Shown here: positions 9,974 through 59,693 of the stretch, in pieces | How positions within the stretch are numbered: the first letter of the stretch is position 1 | How the letters are laid out: every line of letters starts with the position of its first letter | The notes under the pieces: model-generated | Databases searched by the model: none | What the model was told of the DNA's origin: nothing | The model's input: the letters and a program-made list of their open reading frames with translations, nothing else | Translations under genes and position numbers: made by a program | Assembly (NCBI GenBank): GCA_000306725.1 | Contig: CP003083.1 | Span: 1,364,001-1,428,000, forward strand | Reading direction: 5' to 3' | Length of the DNA stretch: 64,000 bases | Origin: Methanolobus psychrophilus R15 | GTDB lineage: Archaea > Halobacteriota > Methanosarcinia > Methanosarcinales > Methanosarcinaceae

Positions 9974-12091
9974 ATGTATCAAACTCTCCAGAAGTACTTC
10001 GGATATTCTGAGTTCCGCCCTCTTCAGAAAGACATAATCCAGGATGTGCTTGATGGAAAGGATACTTTCGTGCTTATGCCCACAGGAGGCGGGAAGTCTC
10101 TGTGCTATCAATTGCCTGCATTGCTGATGGACGGGCTGACGGTTGTGATCTCTCCCCTGATATCCCTCATGAAAGACCAGGTCGACAGCCTCAGGGCCAA
10201 CGGCGTCAATGCGGCATTCCTGAACAGCACCCAGAATTATACCGAATCCAGGAAGATCTGCGACGACATTGCCACAAACGACATCAAAATATTATATATG
10301 GCGCCGGAGAGACTTGCAATGTCCGGCACATTATCGATGATCACAAAGGCAAAGGTCAGCCTTTTCGCCATTGATGAGAGCCACTGCATATCTGAGTGGG
10401 GCCATGATTTCAGGCCTGAGTACCGCAAACTCAGTATGCTCAAAAAAAAGTTCCCCAAAGTGCCGATTATTGCCCTGACAGCTACCGCAACACCGAAGGT
10501 GAGAGAAGACACCCTCAACCAGCTGGGACTTACAAACCCCAAAACCTACATTGCAAGCTTCAACCGCAGCAATCTTCTTTACGAAATCAGGCCGAAAAAG
10601 GAAACCTATGACCAGATATTGCAGTACCTGAGAAGGAATAAGGGAAAGGGCGGAATAATCTACTGTCAGAGCCGCAAGAACGTAGACACAGTCACCGCAA
10701 AGCTCAGAAAAGCTGGTTTCAATGCACTTCCTTACCATGCAGGCTTGAGCGATACTCAGAGAGGGAGAAACCAGGAAGCTTTCATTAAGGACAAAGCAGA
10801 CATCATTGTCGCAACCATCGCTTTTGGAATGGGAATTGATAAGCCCAATGTGCGTTTTGTTATCCATTATGACCTTCCGAAGAACCTGGAAGGTTATTAC
10901 CAGGAAACCGGGAGAGGTGGCAGGGATGGGCTTGAATGTGAATGCATCCTCTTCTTCAGCCACGGCGACAGGTACCGTATAGAGTATTTTGTCAAGCAGA
11001 AGGGCAGGAAGGAAGAGCGGGATATCGCCCTGAAACAGCTTCAGGATATGGTGAATTACTGTGTGAGCACAACATGCCGCAGAAAAGCGCTTCTTAGCTA
11101 CTTTGGGGAAGAACTGGAAGAAGACAACTGCGGCGGATGTGATGCCTGTCTCAGGCCTAAGGAGACTGTGGATGGGACAGAAGAAGCAAAGCTGCTCATC
11201 AGCTGCGTAGGGGAGCTTGGCGAGCGCTATGGCATGAATCACGTTATAGACGTCCTGTGCGGTGCCAATATAAAAAAGATCAAGGAAAAGAAACACGACA
11301 AGCTGAAGACTTACAATTCAGGCTACCGCCACACCCGGCCCAGCTGGCAGGATATGGCACGCGAAATGGTGCAACAGGGAGTGGTCGCGGTAGAGGGCAT
11401 CAGGTATCCCCTTCTCAAGCTCAACAAGGCGAGCAGGGAAGTTATGCAGGGCTCACGTAAGGTAGCCTTTACAAGAATTGCGCCGCTTGAATTCCCTGAC
11501 ACTCAGACCTGTGAGGATGATGAGCCTTATGAACCGGATACAATAGCAAAGCCAGTGACACCGCCACGAGCCCGGAAAGCCGCACAGAACAGTGACAGTG
11601 AACTGTTCTCCAGGCTCAAGGACCTCAGGAAGGAAATGGCCAATCTTCAGGACGTCCCCCCCTACATAATATTCGCGGACACGAGCCTCAAGCAGATGGC
11701 TGCAAAAAAACCTTCCAGCAAGGAGGAGATGCTAAAGATAACAGGTGTCGGGGAGTACAAGCTGAAGAAGTACGGCGACATTTTCCTCAGGGAGATCGGC
11801 AGGTATTGTGAAGAGAAGAACGGCGGTTCTACAAAGACTCCAGAGGAAAAGGCTCCGTCATCACTTCAGAAAAAGACCATGCCGGACCTCGTGGAGCCGG
11901 AGCTGCCGGCAAAGGACATGGGAAAGGGAAATGATAAGCCCGGAAAGAAACACGAGACCATCTTGAAGACCATCAGCGGGCTTGAAAGGGAGATGGTCAT
12001 CCTGGCAAGGGCCAAACTCGGGGATTCCTTCTCGGAAGAGGAGATAAGGGAAGTGTGGGCGGAAGTGATCTCGGGAAGCAGGCAGGAATGA
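9974..12091 (+). CDS. recQ: ATP-dependent DNA helicase RecQ
   Basis: A 705-residue RecQ helicase. It has the N-terminal FRPLQKDII Q-motif region, Walker A PTGGGKS (36-42), DESH box (134-137), ALTATATP motif III, QETGRGGRDG motif VI, the RecQ zinc site (C-STTC-R ... C-G-G-C-D-A-C, about 370-400), an RQC segment and an HRDC domain (about 535-615). It unwinds DNA 3' to 5' in recombination and fork repair. A charged C-terminal tail of about 90 residues extends past HRDC. RecQ is patchy in archaea and is probably of bacterial origin (inference). Confidence 0.95.
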   Translation: MYQTLQKYFGYSEFRPLQKDIIQDVLDGKDTFVLMPTGGGKSLCYQLPALLMDGLTVVISPLISLMKDQVDSLRANGVNAAFLNSTQNYTESRKICDDIATNDIKILYMAPERLAMSGTLSMITKAKVSLFAIDESHCISEWGHDFRPEYRKLSMLKKKFPKVPIIALTATATPKVREDTLNQLGLTNPKTYIASFNRSNLLYEIRPKKETYDQILQYLRRNKGKGGIIYCQSRKNVDTVTAKLRKAGFNALPYHAGLSDTQRGRNQEAFIKDKADIIVATIAFGMGIDKPNVRFVIHYDLPKNLEGYYQETGRGGRDGLECECILFFSHGDRYRIEYFVKQKGRKEERDIALKQLQDMVNYCVSTTCRRKALLSYFGEELEEDNCGGCDACLRPKETVDGTEEAKLLISCVGELGERYGMNHVIDVLCGANIKKIKEKKHDKLKTYNSGYRHTRPSWQDMAREMVQQGVVAVEGIRYPLLKLNKASREVMQGSRKVAFTRIAPLEFPDTQTCEDDEPYEPDTIAKPVTPPRARKAAQNSDSELFSRLKDLRKEMANLQDVPPYIIFADTSLKQMAAKKPSSKEEMLKITGVGEYKLKKYGDIFLREIGRYCEEKNGGSTKTPEEKAPSSLQKKTMPDLVEPELPAKDMGKGNDKPGKKHETILKTISGLEREMVILARAKLGDSFSEEEIREVWAEVISGSRQE

Positions 12092-49161: not shown

Positions 49162-49314
49162 GAAAGTAACCTTAAGAATCTCCTAATGGAACGCATTTTA
49201 GACAATTTCATTCCAAACATTTTTGGGCCACCGTCTTAGATAACTATATATACACTTACATCAATATTATCTTAAATATATAATAGATGTTACAAAACAT
49301 GGGCCGGATGAAAC

Positions 49315-49512
49315 ATGACCACGTTCGATATAAACCAGAAAGAACTTGTTAAGAACTCAGTTCTGATACCCGTTGCATTCGTAGCCGGAACACTGATAGC
49401 GATTTTAGCCTACAATTATTTACCCCACGAAGTTGCCCTTATATCAGTAATCGGCGGCGCAATACTGGTATCACTGATCACATATGCCCTTGTAAAGGCA
49501 AAGTCCAACTAA
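49315..49512 (+). CDS. Small two-helix membrane protein
   Basis: A 65-residue protein with two hydrophobic helices (about 16-32 and 40-60) linked by YNYLPHEVALI. Family not recognised. The preceding 150 bp carry a TATA-like ATATATAATAG near 49277. It ends 66 bp before tRNA-Val. Confidence 0.55.
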   Translation: MTTFDINQKELVKNSVLIPVAFVAGTLIAILAYNYLPHEVALISVIGGAILVSLITYALVKAKSN

Positions 49513-49577
49513 ACTCTGCATCATTTTCGATGCGATAATTATATAGCCTTGCATATCCATTCACATCTCTTGCCTTT

Positions 49578-49651
49578 GGGCTCGTGGTCTAGCTGGTCAT
49601 GACGTCGCCTTCACACGGCGGAGGTCCTGGATTCGAATTCCAGCGGGCCCA
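49578..49651 (+). tRNA. tRNA-Val (CAC)
   Basis: Complete cloverleaf: acceptor GGGCTCG / CGGGCCC, anticodon stem TCGCC / GGCGG with loop TTCACAC (anticodon CAC), T arm CTGGA-TTCGAAT-TCCAG, discriminator A. Its 3' half recurs, with a different T stem, at 56033-56074 and 59606-59626, so this gene is the attachment target of integrating elements. Confidence 0.95.
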
Positions 49652-49688
49652 CTACTTGTTTTACATCTTATCACTGTCTTTACATTCA
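49597..49688 (-). pseudogene. Possible N-terminal piece of a partitioned integrase gene
   Basis: On the minus strand an open frame from ATG near 49688 (or TTG 49782) reads MNVKTVIRCKTSSGPAGIR and then through the tRNA. The integrase at the other end of the island reads SSL..SGPAEIRTPDL through its tRNA copy in the same frame. If the island circularised at the tRNA copies, this frame would become the start of the integrase. Could be coincidence, since any protein-like reading of a tRNA 3' end looks alike. Confidence 0.35.
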
Positions 49689-49774
49689 TCGTTTTGCGGT
49701 ATTGAGCGTAGTGACATACCTCAACTCGCGCTCCAGAAACGTAATCCGGATTCTGAACCTCGGCGGTACCAAAA

Positions 49775-49860
49775 TCTACCAATTTTCACCAGATTGGTAG
49801 TAACTCTTTTATCCCAATAACTACCAATAGCTACCAAAAAGTAACGGATTGGTAGTTATT
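49775..49860 (+). repeat. Inverted repeats in front of the fic gene
   Basis: Two nested sets of the same word: TCTACCAAT (49775-49783) -N9- ATTGGTAGT (49793-49801), and a perfect 13-bp pair AATAACTACCAAT (49816-49828) / ATTGGTAGTTATT (49848-49860) with a 19-base spacer that contains another CTACCAA. The same word pair with N9 spacing occurs again directly after fic. Confidence 0.85.
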
Positions 49861-49884
49861 AAGATTCCACAGAAGGCGCCGGAC

Positions 49885-51153
49885 ATGTGGGAGATAGTCG
49901 GGAAGCATCCTGAGATGCTCTACATGTTCGTTGATCCGCAGATTCAGGAGCTGGTTGCAAAGTACAACCGGGAATATGCACATTGGGAAGAGCTCCGGCA
50001 CCGCAAACTGCCTGTGGAGGCTAAACAACTGTGGGCTCTGATTAAAAGCGCAAGAACATTGCAAGCTAAGCGTGTCGAGTTTGGAGAGTGGACCTTCGGG
50101 TATGTCTTATCCGGCGATACACTCAGGAGATTGCACCTGCTGGACACAAAAGGTGCCGGATACCTTGAAAGCGGGCCTGGGGGTGTGAGTACTGCGGACA
50201 GGAAGCGATACATTGTTAACTCGCTCATGGAAGAAGCCATCGCATCAAGCCAGCTGGAAGGAGCCGCAACCACACGTAAAGCAGCCAAGAAGATGCTGCG
50301 TCAAGAGCGAAAACCCAGGGACTACTCGGAAAAGATGATTCTTAATGGCTATCAGACCATGTGCAGGATAGCAGGAATGAAGGATAGGTCTATTGATGTG
50401 GAAACACTGCTTGAGATTCACCGGGAGATCACACACGATACGCTTGATGATCCCGAACATGAAGGCAAGTTCAGGGACAACAACGAAATAGTCGTGGCAG
50501 ACCCCCAAGAAGGTAGCAAGATCTATCATATCCCGCCTGACTACCACAAGATCCCTTCACTCATGGAAGAGTTCTGCAGGTTCGCCAGCAACGATGAAGA
50601 AGATTTCATCCATCCCCTCATCAAAGGCATAATACTCCACTTCCTGATAGGTTATATCCACCCCTTCACCGATGGGAACGGACGGTCTGCAAGGTCGATT
50701 TTCTACTGGTACATGCTCAGCCGGGGCTACTGGCTCTTTGAGTACATGCCGATATCCAGGATACTGCTGCGCTCCAAAACAAGCTATTCACTGGCCTATC
50801 TGTATACGGAAACCGATGAGAATGACCTTACATACTTCATAAACTACAACCTCTCAGCAATAGAAAAGGCATTGAAGGATCTGGAAGAGTATATCGCTCT
50901 CAAAAAGCAGGAGAATTATGATACAATGCACATCATCGAAACCTCTGAGAACCTGAATCTCAGACAGGCCGACATACTCAAGAACCTGCTCAAAGAACCT
51001 GACAGGTATTTCTCAATTGCTGAGATCAAAGGGAAGTACAATGTTGCCTATGACACCGCAAGGAACGACATGCAGCATCTCGTCAAACTGGGATATGTCG
51101 AGAGAATAGAAAGAGGCAAGAGTTATATGTACAGGTATAAAGGAGTGAAATGA
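49885..51153 (+). CDS. Fic family protein with C-terminal winged helix
   Basis: A 422-residue protein from ATG 49885; a TTG at 49849 lies inside the inverted repeat, so it is less likely. The inhibitory-helix motif S-S-Q-L-E-G (about residue 125 of the long form) is present, then the catalytic H-P-F-T-D-G-N-G-R-S-A-R. It should transfer AMP from ATP to Ser/Thr/Tyr of a target protein, held off by the N-terminal helix. The last 65 residues (LNLRQADILKNLL... SIAEIKGKYNVAYDTARNDMQHLVKLGYVERI) form a winged helix likely to bind DNA, possibly the flanking repeats. Confidence 0.92.
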   Translation: MWEIVGKHPEMLYMFVDPQIQELVAKYNREYAHWEELRHRKLPVEAKQLWALIKSARTLQAKRVEFGEWTFGYVLSGDTLRRLHLLDTKGAGYLESGPGGVSTADRKRYIVNSLMEEAIASSQLEGAATTRKAAKKMLRQERKPRDYSEKMILNGYQTMCRIAGMKDRSIDVETLLEIHREITHDTLDDPEHEGKFRDNNEIVVADPQEGSKIYHIPPDYHKIPSLMEEFCRFASNDEEDFIHPLIKGIILHFLIGYIHPFTDGNGRSARSIFYWYMLSRGYWLFEYMPISRILLRSKTSYSLAYLYTETDENDLTYFINYNLSAIEKALKDLEEYIALKKQENYDTMHIIETSENLNLRQADILKNLLKEPDRYFSIAEIKGKYNVAYDTARNDMQHLVKLGYVERIERGKSYMYRYKGVK

Positions 51154-51166
51154 GAAATTGAATACC

Positions 51167-51198
51167 AATAACTACCAATGTATACCGGATTGGTAGTA
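51167..51198 (+). repeat. Inverted repeat behind the fic gene
   Basis: AATAACTACCAAT (51167-51179) -N9- ATTGGTAGTA (51189-51198), 14 bp after the fic stop. The 9-bp arms and 9-base spacing equal those of the first upstream repeat. Confidence 0.85.
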
Positions 51199-51286
51199 GG
51201 GCGGAGTTGATACGTATAACAAGCTTTATCTTGTTTCAACAATAACTTTTGAATTATCAGACAGAAATCGGAGTGGAGGGACAAAG

Positions 51287-51844
51287 TTGGTAAAAGTACA
51301 TCTAGCAATCTTTATCTTTATTGGAATAATACTAGCAACATCTGGCTGTATAAATCATATGGGTGACTACTATAATGGGCCAGATCAAGCATATAGATGG
51401 CATGAACCTGGCTACACATATCCTGAGCAGTATGATCCTTCAGTGGATGCAAACGAGATTACTGATTTTGAATCCAATGGCGAAATGATATACTATACAG
51501 GCTTTAATGAAAGTGGCCAACAAATACCTTTTAGAGGTGGCCCTCATTGGCTATATGTCCATGGAGGTAGTTGCGTCAGTTGCCACGGTACGGATGGCGA
51601 GGGTGGAGTACCTATAATGATGGGTACCGTTATCCCTCCGAACATTACCTATGAGGCATTGACATCTGAACAGCACGAAATGGGAGAGGATGAAGAACAC
51701 CCTCCTTATACCGATGAGACCATCAAAATAGCCATAAGACAGGGAGAAGATCCTTCGGGTGAAGAACTTGATTATACAATGCCAAGATGGGACATGTCGG
51801 ATGAAGCCGTAAATGATCTGATTGAATATTTGAAGACACTCTAA
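51287..51844 (+). CDS. Monohaem cytochrome c-like lipoprotein
   Basis: A 185-residue protein beginning at TTG 51287 (Shine-Dalgarno GGAGGGA upstream). Signal sequence VKVHLAIFIFIGIILATSGC ends in a lipobox (A-T-S-G-C), so it is anchored outside the membrane. One haem site C-V-S-C-H near residue 100 and a late Met in TMPRWDMSDEAV that could be the sixth haem ligand; VNDLIEYLKTL is the class I cytochrome c end helix. A haem protein carried on an integrated element beside a copper pump is unusual. Confidence 0.85.
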   Translation: MVKVHLAIFIFIGIILATSGCINHMGDYYNGPDQAYRWHEPGYTYPEQYDPSVDANEITDFESNGEMIYYTGFNESGQQIPFRGGPHWLYVHGGSCVSCHGTDGEGGVPIMMGTVIPPNITYEALTSEQHEMGEDEEHPPYTDETIKIAIRQGEDPSGEELDYTMPRWDMSDEAVNDLIEYLKTL

Positions 51845-51908
51845 AAGGTATCTTCTTTCAATGAGCGGAAGGAATTCGCTCAATTTTTATCAGACTAGGA
51901 TAACAAAA

Positions 51909-52245
51909 CTATCCATACTTACTTTCCAAGGCCTCAGGATTCACGATGTTCTGTGCTTGTCCCTTGGCAAACATATGTACATTTTCAACGCATACGTAGG
52001 TGCACTCTTCGAGGGATTCCTCAGATAGGAATGCAAATATGCGGAGTCAACATCACATTGTCCAGACACATGAGTGGATTGTCTGCAGGAGGAGGGGTTT
52101 TTTCAAACACATCCAACCGGTTCCTTTGATCTTTCTTTCCTTTAAGGCCTTGATCAGAGCACTCTCGCCAACTACTTTTCCCCTTGCTGTGTTTATCAGG
52201 ATCGCAGTTGATTTCATCTTGTCGAGTTCTACTTCACCTATCATC
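51909..52245 (-). pseudogene. D-2-hydroxyacid dehydrogenase fragment (SerA-like)
   Basis: The minus strand reads [38 protein letters not shown], the C-terminal part of NAD-dependent 2-hydroxyacid dehydrogenases of the phosphoglycerate dehydrogenase type. After KGTG one base is missing; the other frame continues [17 protein letters not shown], then TPH-like and VENVHMFAKGQAQNIVNPEAL to TAG 51909-51911. The 5' part is lost at the end of the copper ATPase gene. Truncated and frameshifted. Confidence 0.75.
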
Positions 52246-52248
52246 GTT

Positions 52249-54690
52249 TTACTTTTCTGATTCAGGGTCAATGTTTGCGCGTCTGAGTCTCAATGAGTTG
52301 AGTACGACGGTCAATGAGCTCAGTGCCATTGCAGCAGCTCCTATCATGGGATGGAGCAATCCAAAGAATGCTGCAGGGATAGCTATAGCATTATACACCC
52401 ATGCCCAGAAATAGTTCTCTTTGATCTTACGGAACGTCGATTTTGATAATTTTATAGCAGAAACAACTGATTTAAGATCCCCCCGTACCAGCGTGATATC
52501 AGAAGATTCAATTGCTATGTCAGTGCCTGTACCTATTGCAATACCGATGTTTGACTGTTTAAGTGCAGGAGCATCATTGATCCCATCCCCTACCATTGCA
52601 ACTACATCATACACTGATTGCAGCTTCTTGATCTCATCCACTTTCCCTCCGGGCAGGACATCGGATATCACATAACTGATCCCAACCATCTTTGCAACGG
52701 CTTCTGCTGTCTTTTTGTTGTCGCCGGTGATCATTGCAGTTTTTATGCCCATTTTTTCTATCTCACGGATTGCCAGAATAGAATCTTCCTTGATCGTATC
52801 TGCAATTGCAATGGTTCCAATTACTTTCCTGTCCATTACAACCAATACAACGGTCTTGGCGTCAGCTTCAAGCTCACCCATTTTCTCCTCGAACTCCTGA
52901 TAATCCACATTGAACATGGAAAGGATCTTGCGGCTTCCTACAATGACTTCATGAGTGCCGATAGATCCTTTGACACCTTTACCTGTTACAGATTCAAAAT
53001 CCTTGATTTCATGGACAGTCACTTCACTTTCCTTGGCTTTGCGGATGATGGCAGATGCCAAAGGATGTTCTGATACTGCCTCCAGACTTGCTGCATAGGA
53101 GATTACTTCTTCTGAAGACAAAGAGCCAGAAGCCAAGACATCAGTCACCTGAGGCTTACCTTTAGTTATTGTACCTGTCTTGTCAAAAGCAATGATCTTT
53201 ACATCCTTCATCGTCTGTATTGCCTCACCGCTTCGAATCAGAATACCTCTCTGGGCCCCTCTTCCACTCCCGACCATCAGGGCTGTGGGAGTTGCCAGTC
53301 CAAGAGCACAGGGGCAGGAAATGACGAGTACTGCTGTTGTGGCAAGGAGTGAAAGTGTGAAAAGAGGAACATCGGTATTGCTCCAAGGGAAGTTGAAATA
53401 CTCGACTATCGAGATATGAAACTCAGGGAATAGTAGCCATGAGATCGATGCAGCTACAGCAGTGATAATCACAGCCGGTACGAAGTATCCGGTAACCCTA
53501 TCGGCAAACTCCTGGATTGGCACCTTTGACCCCTGTGCCTGCTCGACCAAGGTTATAACCTGAGACAGGAAAGTATCCTTTCCGATCTTTGTGACTCTCA
53601 CATGCAGGAAGCCATGCTGGTTAATGGTGGACCCGATAACCTCATCGCCCTCTTTCCTTTCAACAGGCATCGACTCTCCTGTTGCCATTGACTCATCCAC
53701 GGTACTGCTGCCGGAAACTACAACGCCGTCAGTCGGTATTTTCTCTCCGGGCTTTATGAGCATTATATCGTCTATATTAAGCTCTTTGACGGGTACTTCT
53801 CTTTCAGTTCCATTCTCAATAATACGGGCATTCTTGGCTTCCAGGGCGATCAGTTTTTTAATAGCTTGGGAGGCCCTGCCACGAGCTTTGGTTTCCAGAT
53901 ATCTCCCAACGAGGTGCAAGGCCATGATTGTAGCTGCCATTTCTACAAACGTGGTCACCGGGAACCATAAGCCAAGCATGCTCAGGAAATAAGGTATAAG
54001 AGACCCCATTGTTATGAGCGTATCCATGTTGACAGTTCTGTGCTGCAAAGCTTTCCAGGTATTCCTGTGTGTATCAGCGCCTGCTATGAAAACAGAGGGA
54101 ATTGCAAGTATCAATGTTATGAAGAAATAATATGGAATGGGCATAAAGAACATATGGATCGTCATAAGTACCATGATCAAGCCGGCGGAAGACGCTGCAA
54201 TCCACATCTTTCGTGCTGCCTTGTTGATAGTGAGCTGTTCACGGTCAACCTCTTCCTCTTCCTCAAAACTCATCGTATAGCCTGATTCATCAACAGCCGC
54301 TTTCATATCGTCGATGGATGCAACGGAAGGGTCGTAAGAAATTGTGACCTTGGATGCAGCAAAGTTGACGTTTGCTTCATGAATCCCAGGAGTTGAAGAA
54401 AGCACTTTTTCAATCGTTTGTGCGCATGATATGCAGGTCATGTCAGTAATATTGGCAGTGATTATTTTCGTTCTCTGACCTGCAGGAGTTGCACTGTATC
54501 CTGTACTATCAACAGCTTTAATCAGAGAGTCCACATTTGTGACATTGGGATCATATTCCACAAACGCTTTTTCTGCAGGCAGGCTGACACTTACGGATGC
54601 AACACCTTTTGTTTTCCTTAATGTATCTTCAACTCTTCTTGCACACGAGGCGCAAGTCATTCCTTCAATCTCTAATACAGTCTTTGTCAC
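52249..54690 (-). CDS. copA: Copper-translocating P-type ATPase
   Basis: An 813-residue P1B-type ATPase. Two N-terminal heavy-metal domains (G-M-T-C-A-S-C near residue 9; D-M-T-C-I-S-C near 77), eight membrane helices, transport motif S-C-P-C-A-L-G, phosphorylation site D-K-T-G-T, S-E-H-P-L in the nucleotide domain, and G-D-G-I-N-D-A-P hinge. These mark a Cu(I) exporter. Its promoter region (54691-54830) has a TATA-like TTTTTAATAG on the minus strand near 54797; no clear operator seen. Confidence 0.95.
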
Positions 54691-54958
54691 CCTTTCACAC
54701 CATTCATAATCTGGTCTTTTTCTGCCATATAATATGCAGAGAAGCTCATTGTTGTCAAAAGCCGGATGATCTGTGCCGATAGAACATTTAACTATTAAAA
54801 AGTGGTCTGCTCTATTATTAGTAGGTTACCATTAAAGCAACACATACACATTAGAGTTTGATGCTGTTGAAAGATTTTGCAGGTCTATATGACATGGGAG
54901 TTAATCCAAATTCAATACCTCGCTAATTTCATCTTTATTTTGTTCTACTGCTATCATT

Positions 54959-55166
54959 CTACCTTAAACACTGCAATACTAACTGAATTCTTAACTTTCT
55001 CCTAAGCCATTCTTCAACAAACAAAATAAATCTGGCAAACCTGAACTTGTCCTCATCAATGGCCAATGCACCTGGTCTTACTATTGTGAAATGCTTTTTC
55101 TGGAGGTAGAGCCATGCATTTCTGAGCAGGAATGATATTAAGGTAAAGAAGTACTGAACTTTTACA
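54959..55166 (-). pseudogene. Transposase C-terminal remnant
   Basis: The minus strand from about 55166 to TAG 54959-54961 reads YFFTLISFLLRNAWLYLQ and then FRFARFILFVEEWLRR, the C-terminal end of an IS4/ISH-type transposase. No catalytic part remains. It begins right at the integrase stop codon. The rest of the gap between copA and the integrase (54691-54958) holds no gene. Confidence 0.6.
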
Positions 55167-56118
55167 AATCAAATGAAAAGTTTGCGAGTATTCTTCTGTA
55201 CTCTTCCTTTGCCTGCTGCACTTTATTCAGATAATGAGCACTTCCCACAGTTGCAGGCGCTCTTCCCTGTATGAAGTCAGCCAGACTCTCAGTGACTCCC
55301 TCTTTGATCATAACATTGAGATGCCACTTGCGGATAGTTTTAGCTGAAACTCTCCTCACTTGTAGTTTCTTGCTTACTGTTTTATATTTATCAGGAGATT
55401 GGAACGATTTTATATCCAGTATGTATGCAGTCGGGAAGAAGATCTGAAAAGTCCTCTTGTTGCCAGAGGAAAACTCAGAGGACGGATAGTGAGCAATGTC
55501 ACCATCGATTACAACTTTTTTCTCATCAAAACGCTGAAGCATTAGATAAAGATGAGCTAATAGGTTTCCCGAACAGATCAACAGCTTGAACAGTATTTTC
55601 AGCTCGCTGGGACAGGACACATATGCCTCGTGTACCTCTTCATCGGTAATGTAAACTTCTGTCACTCCTGACTTGGGGATCTTGACGAAACGCCTCCACT
55701 TTTCGAGTGCGTGTCCTGCTAAGATATCAATCTCTTCATCTTCACAATAATTAAACAGGTTCCATAAGCCACGTGACTCCTTATCCTTAAACTTAAGTTT
55801 TCTGAAGTCGTTGGGCCTATACACATCATTATCCTTGAAGAAGCCCACTAGTGCATTATAATAGATGTTCTTTGTCGGTTTCGAAATGTCCCTGTGCTGC
55901 AACCAGTTTTTAAAAGCGACCTCATTAGAGTTCCAAAAGTGCTGAGGCCCAGTACATTGCACCTGATTATTGAGTGCAGAGTCGCCACTCGTGACGTTTG
56001 CTGGTGCGTTCACGTCGATAGTGCCTGAAATATTCACACGGTGGAGGTCCGGAGTTCGAATCTCCGCGGGCCCACTAACATCTAAAGAGGAGGCTGCTGG
56101 TTCTTGCATCAATGCCAA
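55162..56118 (-). CDS. SSV/SNJ2-like tyrosine recombinase (integrase)
   Basis: A 318-codon frame. The C-terminal catalytic part shows V-S-A-K-T-I-R-K-W-H (Arg-x-x-His) and Q-G-R-A-P-A-T-V-G-S-A-H-Y (Arg, His and probable nucleophilic Tyr), the pattern of archaeal SSV-type integrases. The core-binding domain starts near FKNWLQHRDISKPTKN. The first about 45 residues read through the tRNA-Val copy 56033-56074 (GPAEIRTPDLHRVNISG) and into chromosome; the true start in this integrated form may be one of the in-frame GTG codons downstream. It would recombine the tRNA copies. Confidence 0.82.
   Translation of the reverse strand: MALMQEPAASSLDVSGPAEIRTPDLHRVNISGTIDVNAPANVTSGDSALNNQVQCTGPQHFWNSNEVAFKNWLQHRDISKPTKNIYYNALVGFFKDNDVYRPNDFRKLKFKDKESRGLWNLFNYCEDEEIDILAGHALEKWRRFVKIPKSGVTEVYITDEEVHEAYVSCPSELKILFKLLICSGNLLAHLYLMLQRFDEKKVVIDGDIAHYPSSEFSSGNKRTFQIFFPTAYILDIKSFQSPDKYKTVSKKLQVRRVSAKTIRKWHLNVMIKEGVTESLADFIQGRAPATVGSAHYLNKVQQAKEEYRRILANFSFDL
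56033..56074 (+). repeat. attR-like copy of tRNA-Val 3' half
   Basis: From anticodon loop (TTCACAC) to discriminator A: matches tRNA-Val(CAC) except for one base in the anticodon stem and a different but fully paired T stem (CGGAG / CTCCG). The 5' half is missing. It marks the right border of the first island. Confidence 0.85.
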
Positions 56119-56193
56119 CTGTTTTTCAAGTGATCCAACTCCTGAAGTAATTATGCTGTTATCGCTTGGATATCAAGGATTTCTAGAGGGTCA

Positions 56194-56526
56194 TTAATGA
56201 GTATAATCAATTAATCGTATCGAATCACCTATCTTCTTTTCAATTGCTGTCTTTATCTGTTCGGCATGCGGACAGGCAAATCCAATGGGATTTCCTCGTG
56301 TGATACATGAAGCAAGGGCAATTGTATCAGCTCCACGTCTGACCATTTCAGCAGCCCTCCAAACTGCTTTCTTTCCGGGGCAACCACCGCATGAAACAAC
56401 ACCGATCACTTCAATTTCACCCTCGATGCCCTCGAATGCAAGTTTTTTCTCCTTCATAACCTTCAAATCCGTTGTTGCAGGACATATGTCCTCTGTTTGC
56501 ATACACCTGATCAATCCTACTATCAT
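56194..56526 (-). CDS. CGGC domain protein
   Basis: A 110-residue protein with the C-G-G-C motif (V-S-C-G-G-C-P-G-K-K) that names the family, plus Cys in IRCMQTEDICPATTD, LASCITRGNP and FACPHAEQ. The six or seven Cys probably bind a metal or an Fe-S cluster. Function is unknown; such proteins are common in anaerobes. It points away from the editing-domain gene only by a 72-bp gap on the same strand. Confidence 0.85.
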   Translation of the reverse strand: MIVGLIRCMQTEDICPATTDLKVMKEKKLAFEGIEGEIEVIGVVSCGGCPGKKAVWRAAEMVRRGADTIALASCITRGNPIGFACPHAEQIKTAIEKKIGDSIRLIDYTH

Positions 56527-56598
56527 GATTTCGCCTCTTTCATATTTACAAATATACCTTCGCCAGCAAAACTGAAATGTCCGTCATGTCCAGCCTGT

Positions 56599-57009
56599 TC
56601 AAATCTCAACGAAAACCTTTGCAAGGGATTCACCCTTGACATGGATGGAGAATTGGTAAAGATATCCAAAAGGTACTGTAGAAACGTTTATACCTTTGTT
56701 TCTCAGTTTCTCCTCAATTGATACGATAACTTCCATTGCGAATTCCGGTGATGATTTACTGGACGACAGATGAGCAAAGGAATGTAATACAATTTTATCC
56801 TTGTTTACTTTATTCAAATACCATTTGATGTTCCCCACTGCGCTTTTGACGATTTTGCTCTTTCTCTCTTCGTCTTCTGATTCAGCATGGATGAAAACAA
56901 CAGCAGTATTTTCGATCCTTTCTTCAATTTCGACATCTTCCACGCTTTCAATTGTCTTGCAATGAGTGTCGAACCAAAAATATTCTACATCAAATAGTAA
57001 CAACTTCAT
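56599..57009 (-). CDS. Free-standing archaeal ThrRS editing-domain protein
   Basis: A 136-residue protein from ATG 57009 (ribosome site GGAGTG just upstream; a GTG three codons before is less likely). MKLLLFDVEYFWFD, VLHSFAHLSSSKSSPEFAMEV and V-P-F-G-Y-L-Y-Q-F-S-I-H-V-K-G match the N-terminal editing domain of archaeal threonyl-tRNA synthetase, which removes Ser from tRNA-Thr and has the D-aminoacyl-tRNA deacylase fold. Here it has no synthetase attached. It could edit mischarged or D-aminoacyl tRNAs in trans. Confidence 0.82.
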   Translation of the reverse strand: MKLLLFDVEYFWFDTHCKTIESVEDVEIEERIENTAVVFIHAESEDEERKSKIVKSAVGNIKWYLNKVNKDKIVLHSFAHLSSSKSSPEFAMEVIVSIEEKLRNKGINVSTVPFGYLYQFSIHVKGESLAKVFVEI

Positions 57010-57045
57010 GTGCCCCACTCCTTTTAAAATTGAAAACTGGATAGA

Positions 57046-57351
57046 TTAGGGATATATTGATAGATTCACATCTTTCCCAAAAGCAACATAATTTGCAAAA
57101 TCTGAGCTGATGGCCTTGATAGCCTCTTCCGTTGGCTCGGAATAATACCAGGCTGCATCTTTGTTCACTTTACCATTGACAAATATATCGTAATAATTGA
57201 TCTTTCCCTTTGGAGATGATTTCTGATTCCCATTGTTTTTGAAGTATTCCATATTCAATGTCTCCAGAGCGAAGTATTTTTCTCCGTCGATCATGAAGAA
57301 CTTCTTGCTTTTACCAAGCAGTGCTCCATTCCATTTGATATACCATGCCAT
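57046..57351 (-). CDS. DUF427 domain protein
   Basis: A 101-residue protein from ATG 57351. The pattern W-N-G..L, then MEYFKNN, KGKINYYDIFVNGKVNKDAAWYY and Y-V-A-F-G-K-D-V is the DUF427 beta fold, a small domain of unknown function more common in bacteria. It is 36 bp upstream of the editing-domain gene on the same strand, so the two are probably one operon. Confidence 0.75.
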   Translation of the reverse strand: MAWYIKWNGALLGKSKKFFMIDGEKYFALETLNMEYFKNNGNQKSSPKGKINYYDIFVNGKVNKDAAWYYSEPTEEAIKAISSDFANYVAFGKDVNLSIYP

Positions 57352-57613
57352 TATTACCATAATATCAGTTCCATCATTTTATTATTGCAAGAATAAGGAG
57401 CGGACTTTTTTCATATATACATATTCTGCATATTATATTCATGGCATTACCATTGTCGAAGGCGTTGATAATTCTCTTATCAGTATTTTCTTTGCCTTGG
57501 ATTCAGGAAATCAAGAGTATGGCGGATATACGTAGAAGACATCCTGAAATTAGTATATAACAAGTAATCCTCAAAAGGCTTAATATTGGTTAAGGACAAA
57601 GCCTGAAGAGACC

Positions 57614-58759
57614 ATGCAGCGCTTTAAAACTCTTGAGGATCTCAAAAACTCATATAGTGAGCGTATTCGCCAGATAGCAGATGAAAGAAAATCGGGAAAG
57701 AAATTAGTCGGCACTTTCTGTCTCTTCGTACCCGACGAGATCATTTTTGCAGCAGGGGCTGACCGTGTAATACTCTGCGGAGGCAAGAATGACACGGTAT
57801 CGATAGCGGAACAGTATCTGCCAAGGAACATCTGCCCACTGGTCAAATCTTCTTTTGGCTCAATCATCAATGACGGCTGTTCAGGAGTAAAATCCTGCTC
57901 TCACTTCAGCATGGTAGATATGATCGTAGCCGAGAATACCTGTGACAGTAAGAAGAAGATGTATGAATTACTGGGGGACTACGTTCCAACCTACGTAATT
58001 GATCTTCCTCAAAGACCTGACACTCCTGAAGCCCTTAAATACTTTTTATCTGAGCTCGAAAAGTTCAGAGATGCTATGGAACAGCTTACAGGCAACAAAG
58101 TAACTACCGAAGGATTAAGACAGGAGATCAAATCCTCGAATGAAACAAGAGAGCTGCTTCACAGGCTCTATGAACTACGTAAAAGGGACCCAAGCCCCAT
58201 AAGTGGTTCCCATGTGCTGAAAATCCTTCAAAAGCAGTATTTCTTATCACCAGATAAGCTTAAGGAATACCTCCGGATGCTTATCACGGAAGTGGAGAAC
58301 ATTGAGCCAGAGCAGGTTCACAAGCCCAGGATAATGATCTCCGGTTGCCCAATGCCAGGTGGTAACACTAAAGTAACTGAGATCATAGAGAGCAAAGGCG
58401 GTGTCATTGTTGCAGAGGAAAGCTGCACCGGCACGAGATCTTTCTGGGACCTAATAGATGAGAATAAGGAACCTATGACCGCACTGGCAGAAAGATACAT
58501 AAAAATACCCTGCTCCTGCATGAGCCCCAATGACAGGCGTATAGACAATATCCTCGAACTTGCCAGAGAGTTCAGGGTCAATGGTGTGATCTACTACACA
58601 TTGCAGTTCTGCCACGGGTACAATATCGAAAAACAAAAGATACAGAAAGCGCTGAAGGAGGCCGGGATTCCGATGCTCTCTATTGAGACGGATTACAGTG
58701 ACTCTGACGTTGAGCAGATCGGACTTCGTGTAGATGCATTTATGGAGATGATCTCATGA
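57614..58759 (+). CDS. 2-hydroxyacyl-CoA dehydratase family / double-cubane cluster protein
   Basis: A 381-residue protein of the HgdB/FldC superfamily, single-subunit type. Cluster Cys occur in RNICPLVKSS (about 77), AENTCDSKK (about 115) and TLQFCHGYN (about 337), with SCSHF and SCTGTRSFW as further conserved spots. One-subunit members with a partner activase are double-cubane cluster proteins that do hard low-potential reductions of small molecules. No CoA-transferase is nearby, so an acyl-CoA substrate is not supported. Overlaps the activase by 4 bases. Confidence 0.85.
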   Translation: MQRFKTLEDLKNSYSERIRQIADERKSGKKLVGTFCLFVPDEIIFAAGADRVILCGGKNDTVSIAEQYLPRNICPLVKSSFGSIINDGCSGVKSCSHFSMVDMIVAENTCDSKKKMYELLGDYVPTYVIDLPQRPDTPEALKYFLSELEKFRDAMEQLTGNKVTTEGLRQEIKSSNETRELLHRLYELRKRDPSPISGSHVLKILQKQYFLSPDKLKEYLRMLITEVENIEPEQVHKPRIMISGCPMPGGNTKVTEIIESKGGVIVAEESCTGTRSFWDLIDENKEPMTALAERYIKIPCSCMSPNDRRIDNILELAREFRVNGVIYYTLQFCHGYNIEKQKIQKALKEAGIPMLSIETDYSDSDVEQIGLRVDAFMEMIS

Positions 58760-59517
58760 TCTCAGTGGGAATTGATGCAGGTTCGGCCACAACCAAGGCA
58801 GTGCTTGTCAAAGATGACAGCAGCATTATTCAATCCATACGGCCCACTGAATTTGATTTTGTTTCTGCGGCGGAAAAGGCATACGAAGACGTACTTGGAA
58901 TTGTCGGAATTGACAGAAAAGAAGTCGATCATGTATATTCAACAGGATATGGCAGGAACAGCATAAAATTTGCCGACGGGTCCATCAGCGAGATAACTGC
59001 CCATGCAAAGGGCGTACATCATCTCTATCCAGATGTCGAAGGCATAATAGATATTGGAGGTCAGGACAGCAAGGTAATATCGGTCAACAACGGAAAAGTA
59101 ACTGACTTCCTGATGAACGACAAATGCGCTGCCGGCACAGGCAAATTCGTGGAGTACACTGCAAGGGCACTTGAAGTGCCAATAGAAGAACTTGCAAAGA
59201 TGGCACTTGCTTCAAAATCACCTGCAGGTATAAGCAGTATGTGTACCGTTTTTGCTGAATCGGAAGTTATATCGCTGCGTGCAAAAGGTTACTCAAAAGA
59301 GGATATCGCAGCCGGACTCGTTGAAAGCATTGCCAGGAGGGTCGCTGTCATGGCCAGGCAGATCGGGCTGAAAAGAAATGTAGCTTTTGTGGGAGGAGTG
59401 GCAAAGAACGCCGCCATCAAAGCATCACTTGAGAAGGAATTAGGAATATCACTCTATGTGCTTCCGGAACCGCAGATCACAGGAGCACTTGGAGCGGCAC
59501 TGCACGGTATCAATTGA
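58756..59517 (+). CDS. Dehydratase activase (BadF/HgdC ATPase)
   Basis: A 253-residue ASKHA-fold ATPase. GIDAGSATTKAVL phosphate-1 motif, IDIGGQDSK phosphate-2, and the two bridging-cluster Cys in N-D-K-C-A-A-G-T-G and S-M-C-T-V-F-A-E-S-E-V. A homodimer with one 4Fe-4S cluster uses ATP to drive electrons into the partner encoded just upstream (ATGA overlap). Confidence 0.93.
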   Translation: MISVGIDAGSATTKAVLVKDDSSIIQSIRPTEFDFVSAAEKAYEDVLGIVGIDRKEVDHVYSTGYGRNSIKFADGSISEITAHAKGVHHLYPDVEGIIDIGGQDSKVISVNNGKVTDFLMNDKCAAGTGKFVEYTARALEVPIEELAKMALASKSPAGISSMCTVFAESEVISLRAKGYSKEDIAAGLVESIARRVAVMARQIGLKRNVAFVGGVAKNAAIKASLEKELGISLYVLPEPQITGALGAALHGIN

Positions 59518-59605
59518 ACACATGACTTCTATTTCCCAAATGATAGACTCTGTAGGGATTCTCATTAGAATAACATAGGCAACCCTGATACATTCATTAT
59601 AATCG

Positions 59606-59626
59606 TCGAATCTCCGCGGGACCACT
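59606..59626 (+). repeat. Third copy of the tRNA-Val 3' end
   Basis: TCGAATCTCCGCGGG at 59606-59620, then ACCACT, repeats the last 21 bases of the 56033-56074 copy with one mismatch. It carries the same T-arm variant (CTCCG). The rest of the gap 59518-59693 shows no gene. Confidence 0.75.
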
Positions 59627-59693
59627 CTTATTTCTTCATACTCCTGGAGGTATCGAGAGCAGAGAGTTTTCTTCTACCAATGAATCCTTCTGT

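Follow-up and report, generated by a model that had tools for sequence, protein, structure and literature searches.

Site-specific integration into a tRNA gene is assumed to restore the tRNA. A tRNA-Val(CAC) gene of a Methanolobus genome, followed downstream by two further copies of its own 3′ end, raises the question of what the inserted DNA did to this gene. The locus lies in a window of 64,000 nucleotides, the whole stretch of DNA analyzed (bases 1364001–1428000 of the 3,072,769-bp single-contig genome, G000; positions given without a prefix are those of the window). The intact gene was called by ARAGORN at 49578–49652; it occupies 49578–49651 on the + strand and has the T arm CTGGA/TCCAG. 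Copy 2 is a 3′ half with the T arm CGGAG/CTCCG (56033–56074, +), and copy 3 is a decayed 3′ end of 21 bp of the CTCCG type (59606–59626, +). A 20-mer of the tRNA 3′ end matched at 49633, 56056, and 59606, all on the + strand, and a 43-mer of the CGGAG-type 3′ half had a single match, with one mismatch, at 56033–56075. Shuffled sequence gave no such matches for either probe (0 expected), which rules out a chance origin of the repeats. The earlier note on this DNA had described an intact tRNA-Val(CAC) with two downstream 3′ copies in the same orientation, and the ARAGORN call, the k-mer matches, and the shuffles bear this out. It had also stated that copies 2 and 3 share a T stem and that both stems pair fully. 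Pairing is indeed full in the intact gene and in copy 2, but copy 3 contains only the 3′ strand CTCCG, which it has in common with copy 2, and is too short for a whole stem; it has one mismatch to the CGGAG type and four to the CTGGA type. A candidate fourth copy at 49754–49774 was dropped, as the same sequence stands before a fic cassette in the related genome G022 with no tRNA there.

The closest relatives, assigned by the identity of the flank and of genes rather than by a species tree and compared from genomes that are in part drafts, bear on the state before the last insertion. The flank 49200–49577 is 96% identical to the window in G022 and 93% in G016, and in both genomes a tRNA-Val(CAC) gene with the arm CGGAG/CTCCG runs directly into the homologue of window position 56075 onward. 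Judged from these sequences, G022 and G016 are empty sites for an island A (49652–56074) and would show the T arm that the host originally had. A CGGAG/CTCCG arm in relatives free of the island had been predicted, and the two genomes, which join 49577 to 56075, confirm it. The synteny from 49577 to 59627 that was also expected, a doubly empty junction with neither island A nor the segment between copies 2 and 3 (island B), did not turn up in any congener examined.

Four main T-arm types occur in tRNA-Val(CAC) across the genus. The CGGAG arm was found in eight relatives (G006, G012, G013, G016, G018, G021, G022, and G024), and the CTGGA arm occurs in the genus only in the window and in G009 (M. 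psychrotolerans). Because the empty sites have the CGGAG arm and CTGGA is found elsewhere only in M. psychrotolerans, the newest insert appears to have swapped the 3′ half of the gene. The block of identity between the intact gene and copy 2 starts exactly at base 1 of the 7-nt anticodon loop (TTCACAC) and ends with CCACTA, and the newest inserted DNA is read as having replaced everything 3′ of the anticodon loop, with the putative imported half running from 49610, in that loop, to the 3′ end (+, T arm CTGGA/TCCAG). The T stem lies with both of its strands 3′ of the anticodon loop, so that the swapped tRNA still pairs and folds. The arrangement is that of an integration from the 3′ side, in which attL takes the 3′ half of the element and attR that of the host: the intact gene is the reconstituted target at attL, and copy 2, read as the displaced original, is attR of island A as well as a former attL half of island B. 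The claim that the newest element brought its own 3′ half and displaced the original agrees with the T arms and the empty sites, and the carrier would be either island A or a small repeat at its left end, considered below. A CTGGA arm without an island, which the earlier note had named as evidence against its model, exists only in the more distant M. psychrotolerans and fits a donor rather than a refutation.

The M. psychrotolerans gene has no adjacent integrase, and its CTGGA arm could also be taken to favor gene conversion, in which homologous recombination with the tRNA DNA of a different species would have altered the T arm and the island would have played no part. We find this hardly credible, as the 96% identity of the upstream DNA to G022 extends as far as the tRNA itself, the shared stretch begins at the anticodon loop, and the displaced original half lies exactly where site-specific integration would put it. 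Elements at tRNA-Val(TAC) offer a comparison for the swap by integration. Among seven related elements compared there, the att block starts at the TTTACAC loop in six, the G020 copy being cut short. In the six att copies at tRNA-Val(TAC) that can be compared, the T arm is that of the resident tRNA or, for G010 (M. bombayensis), the genus-typical one, which makes the window swap exceptional; the window would be an unusual case in which the T-arm types of donor and host differed. A second T-arm swap was considered for G011 at tRNA-Val(TAC), but the att fragment there has seven mismatches from both the CAC-CGGAG and the TAC-AGGAG types and favors neither. In the same genome, a contig stops exactly after base 46 of tRNA-Val(CAC) (G011:C64:1–46), which is what a break of the assembly at a repeated att sequence would produce. 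The T arms of all three Val isoacceptors show compensatory differences between congeners, some of which may also be integration imports.

Island A begins, to the right of the tRNA, with a mini-element of ~100 bp that lies between tRNA-Val(CAC) and a fic cassette. Its core (49694–49755, +, ~62 nt) has two small hairpins, with a GGTAT..ATACC hairpin and CGCGCTCCAGAAGCG. This mini-element may itself have been the last insertion, bringing the CTGGA/TCCAG half after island A had brought a half of the CGGAG type. It sits directly against the tRNA, several copies in congeners precede a repeat of the 3′ end of their own tRNA, and the degenerate piece at 49754–49774 is by our own count nearer to the CTCCG than to the TCCAG type. 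Moreover, no recognizable IntN(A) domain is visible beside the tRNA-Val gene at attL, the place being occupied by the mini-element. On the other hand, G006 and G018 have the mini-element together with a CGGAG arm, at ~100 bp the element lacks its own integrase, and the degenerate piece, standing before the fic cassette elsewhere in G022 where no tRNA is present, may for that reason not be a tRNA copy. We regard the mini-element as an unlikely carrier and infer that island A brought the new half.

The mini-element is itself widespread at tRNA genes. Compensatory changes are seen in 19 copies, in which 98.4% of cells are paired and 14 cells have two-sided changes, compared with 4.2 in shuffles; these copies were hand-picked before the covariance model was built, and the fit of the model to them is thus expected. 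The model found the mini-element in 44 of 112 Methanosarcinaceae genomes, distributed over seven genera. Every strong Methanolobus copy that was checked lies either just downstream of tRNA-Pro(GGG), Val(CAC), Val(TAC), or Ile(GAT) or next to an int at a displaced attR. In the genome of the window, another copy is found behind tRNA-Pro(GGG) (G000:C1:1898214–1898275), and half a core to the right of copy 3 (59641–59666, +) is read as the old host side. A genome of another genus (G132) has the mini-element behind tRNA-Val(GAC), and in genus g13 some copies are away from any tRNA. At several loci the mini-element is followed by a repeat of the 3′ end of its own tRNA, and tandem arrays with units of 81–163 bp are formed. 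Tandem units with a tRNA 3′ end recall the tyrT repeats of E. coli. A comparison with Rfam did not supply a usable name for it, and a literature search with poor coverage of subscription papers gave nothing relevant.

The fic cassette (49790–51198, +) has TACCAA/TTGGTA repeats at both ends and encodes a Fic/DOC protein (49849–51153, +). As a block it is found elsewhere in G022, G016, G011, G009, G012, and G040, which indicates that island A itself is composite, and the block with its TACCAA/TTGGTA ends may move on its own. In G011 it lies behind tRNA-Val(TAC). The remaining cargo of island A comprises a cytochrome c-type lipoprotein with one CxxCH (51287–51844, +) and a CopA-like heavy-metal P-type ATPase with two HMA domains (52249–54690, −).

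At the far end of island A, copy 2 sits within an integrase ORF (55162–56118, −) that the earlier note had missed. The ORF has the Phage_integr_3 domain (PF16795, E = 6.7e-36), and a phmmer search of the PDB matched it to 3uxu, 3vcf, and 4dks (“Probable integrase”). Its best annotated matches are the integrases of Archaeoglobus profundus pleomorphic provirus 1 (BK065154; 41.9% identity, 63% of the query) and of the Thermococcus sp. 26/2 plasmid GU056179 (t26-1p; 29.9% identity, 94% of the query), and the integrases of two relatives, M. halotolerans (G013) and a Methanolobus MAG, are 83–84% identical to it. The att site lies inside the int gene: copy 2 is translated as SGPAEIRTPDLHRVN in the ORF, and 12 relatives have a corresponding stretch. 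The catalytic set R..K..KxxR..Y is incomplete, as Arg I of the SG[NS]R motif is replaced by Leu186 through the codon CTA at 55561–55563 (−), while the other residues are kept. Arg I is retained in 12 of the 13 aligned integrases, the window being the exception. The loss of Arg I makes integrase activity and present mobility doubtful, and the island A integrase is probably dead, a relic of the family rather than an active member. At the junction expected after excision of island A, the int frame stays open (MNVKTVIRCKTS-SGP). No close match to a free virus or plasmid with this integrase was found in viral contigs, phages, or plasmids, and no hallmark gene of a virus or plasmid was detected in either island.

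Island B (56075–59605) is interpreted as an older, decayed element of the SSV type. In the window, copy 2 is followed on its right by the end of an IntN domain (SIITSGVGSLEKQLALMQ...), as is the tRNA in G022 (SIIVSRVESLEKQLALMQ...). The coiled-coil remnant in the window (YPSDNSIITSGVGSLEKQLALMQEPAASSLDV; 56077–56172, −), like the remnant in G022, matches the complete IntN at attL of G002 and G020. The remnants in the window and G022 are in frame with the tRNA segment, and the G016 version is frame-shifted. At the position of copy 3, which would be attR of island B, G022 and G016 have IntC pseudogenes. An IntN remnant on the tRNA side and IntC on the far side mark island B as a putative partitioned SSV-type element whose right end appears to have decayed differently in different species. 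In G013, where the cargo genes of island B adjoin the tRNA, reading of the sequence revealed no recognizable remnant of IntN or IntC. Because no doubly empty site was seen among the congeners examined, the outer boundary of island B is a putative one, placed by copy 3 and the Int remnants. The UbiA gene to the right of copy 3 was rejected as host flank, being patchy and, in G015, near tRNA-Val(TAC).

The cargo of island B consists of a CGGC-domain protein (56194–56526, −), a free-standing archaeal threonyl-tRNA synthetase editing domain (56599–57018, −), a DUF427 protein (57046–57360, −), a 2-hydroxyacyl-CoA dehydratase D-component-like protein (HGD-D; 57614–58759, +), and a BcrAD/BadFG-type activator ATPase (58756–59517, +). 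Close homologues of the editing domain are present in only part of the genus. The distribution of these genes bears on whether 56075–59605 is an element at all, or ordinary host DNA in which copy 3 is a stray remnant and into which only island A ever integrated. Genes of the segment lie near the tRNA in G022, G016, G006, and G013, and no congener showed the site without the segment on the same right flank, as would be expected of host DNA. However, the Int halves flank the segment just as the partition of an SSV-type element would arrange them, and the HGD-D gene is patchy: its strong homologues are confined to part of the genus, where they lie next to tRNA-Val(CAC) in G000, G022, G016, G006, and G013 but elsewhere in G024, G019, G008, G012, and G021. 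We consider a host origin of the segment very unlikely.

Taken together, these results support the interpretation of the earlier note that two islands landed successively in one tRNA-Val gene; the newer integration is backed by the empty site and the older by integrase halves at both ends, which that note had not described. It is likely that the locus represents stacked SSV-type elements at a tRNA-Val(CAC) hot spot and that the newer one swapped the 3′ half of the tRNA. We hypothesize that the site is a hot spot for archaeal SSV-type tyrosine-integrase elements with att inside int. Element B would have entered first, giving the order tRNA, IntN(B), cargo, IntC(B), and attR (copy 3), and would then have decayed. 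Element A would have recombined next at the same tRNA, its integrase probably exchanging strands within the 7-nt anticodon loop. The gene on the left would have kept the 5′ half of the host and taken the 3′ half of element A (CTGGA/TCCAG), the former 3′ half of the host (CGGAG/CTCCG) being pushed to the far end of A as copy 2. We infer the crossover inside the loop, the order of the integrations, an M. psychrotolerans-like donor, and the loss of present mobility.

With element A placed in front of B, IntC(A) would have been fused in frame with the IntN remnant of B by way of the tRNA segment, and the ORF 55162–56118 is read as this fusion. At tRNA-Val(TAC), the attL side of the elements in G002, G020, and G001 encodes a complete IntN of roughly 85–120 aa with a coiled coil. 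In G002, two stacked elements lie behind tRNA-Val(TAC), each with a complete int and a perfect 45-bp tRNA copy (L201:2636–2680 and 10340–10384). In G001, the position that corresponds to the fused ORF, at attR, is taken by a complete int of 436 aa with Arg I intact (L204:11490–12800); some 16 kb from it, a different IntN adjoins the tRNA. The 436-aa int is at the far end of the integrated element, about 500 bp from gyrB. We tentatively suggest, as a possibility somewhat short of probable, that stacking undoes the “suicide” of these integrases by joining the IntC of the new element in frame to the IntN of the old one via the tRNA segment, so that a complete integrase is regenerated. If true, only the last arrival would be able to leave by itself, integrase N-termini would be reshuffled at each stacking, and the 436-aa integrase of G001 would illustrate the working state and the window the decayed state.

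Systems of this kind are already known. Island A shares with the SSV-type (type I, “suicidal”) integrases of the SSV1/SSV2, pTN3, and pT26-2 families the Phage_integr_3 domain, an att site inside int, and a tRNA target, and the decayed island B shares with them the int(N)/int(C) partition (PMC8371274); the window differs in that the int ORF is open in the integrated state, with a foreign IntN remnant supplied by stacking, and in that Arg I is lost. tRNA-Val(CAC) is among the most used archaeal integration sites, the persistence of self-splitting integrases has been discussed as a paradox, and chimeric suicidal integrases have been derived from homologous recombination between elements at different loci (PMC8371274). 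Chimeric integrases would arise more simply by stacking at one tRNA than by such recombination, and the window locus and its Methanolobus counterparts suggest this direct route. As in the tandem islands of Islander, whose catalogue lists 125 tandems of two or more, the regenerated target gene and the displaced fragments mark successive islands (PMC4383910). However, Islander requires an integrase for each member (PMC4383910), whereas island B keeps only remnants, and in the window the displaced and regenerated halves differ in T-arm type. Integration of SSVK1 converts a tRNA-Glu gene into tRNA-Asp (cited in PMC8371274). The target tRNA gene is altered in both cases, but the tRNA in the window keeps its anticodon and has a different T arm, whose stem still pairs. 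The points of interest are thus the replacement of a tRNA half and the fusion of integrase halves by stacking. The state before (sister species), the state after (window), and the displaced original (copy 2) are all readable at one locus, and the survival of the original half next to the one that replaced it documents the swap with unusual clarity. On this reading, an element can exchange the 3′ half of a tRNA gene for a variant otherwise known only from another species with the fold unbroken.

Other insertions, or possible insertions, were noted at tRNA-Val(CAC) in the genus. In G006, an independent insertion before the genes of island B (L045, from about 13619 down to 11500) contains a mini-element, a gluconate-permease-like gene (assigned by eye), and an integrase remnant. 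In G018, a fluoride riboswitch truncated by the contig end (L126:2136–2202; Rfam RF01734, 38.4 bits) lies a few hundred bases behind tRNA-Val(CAC) and is possibly the cargo of another insertion.
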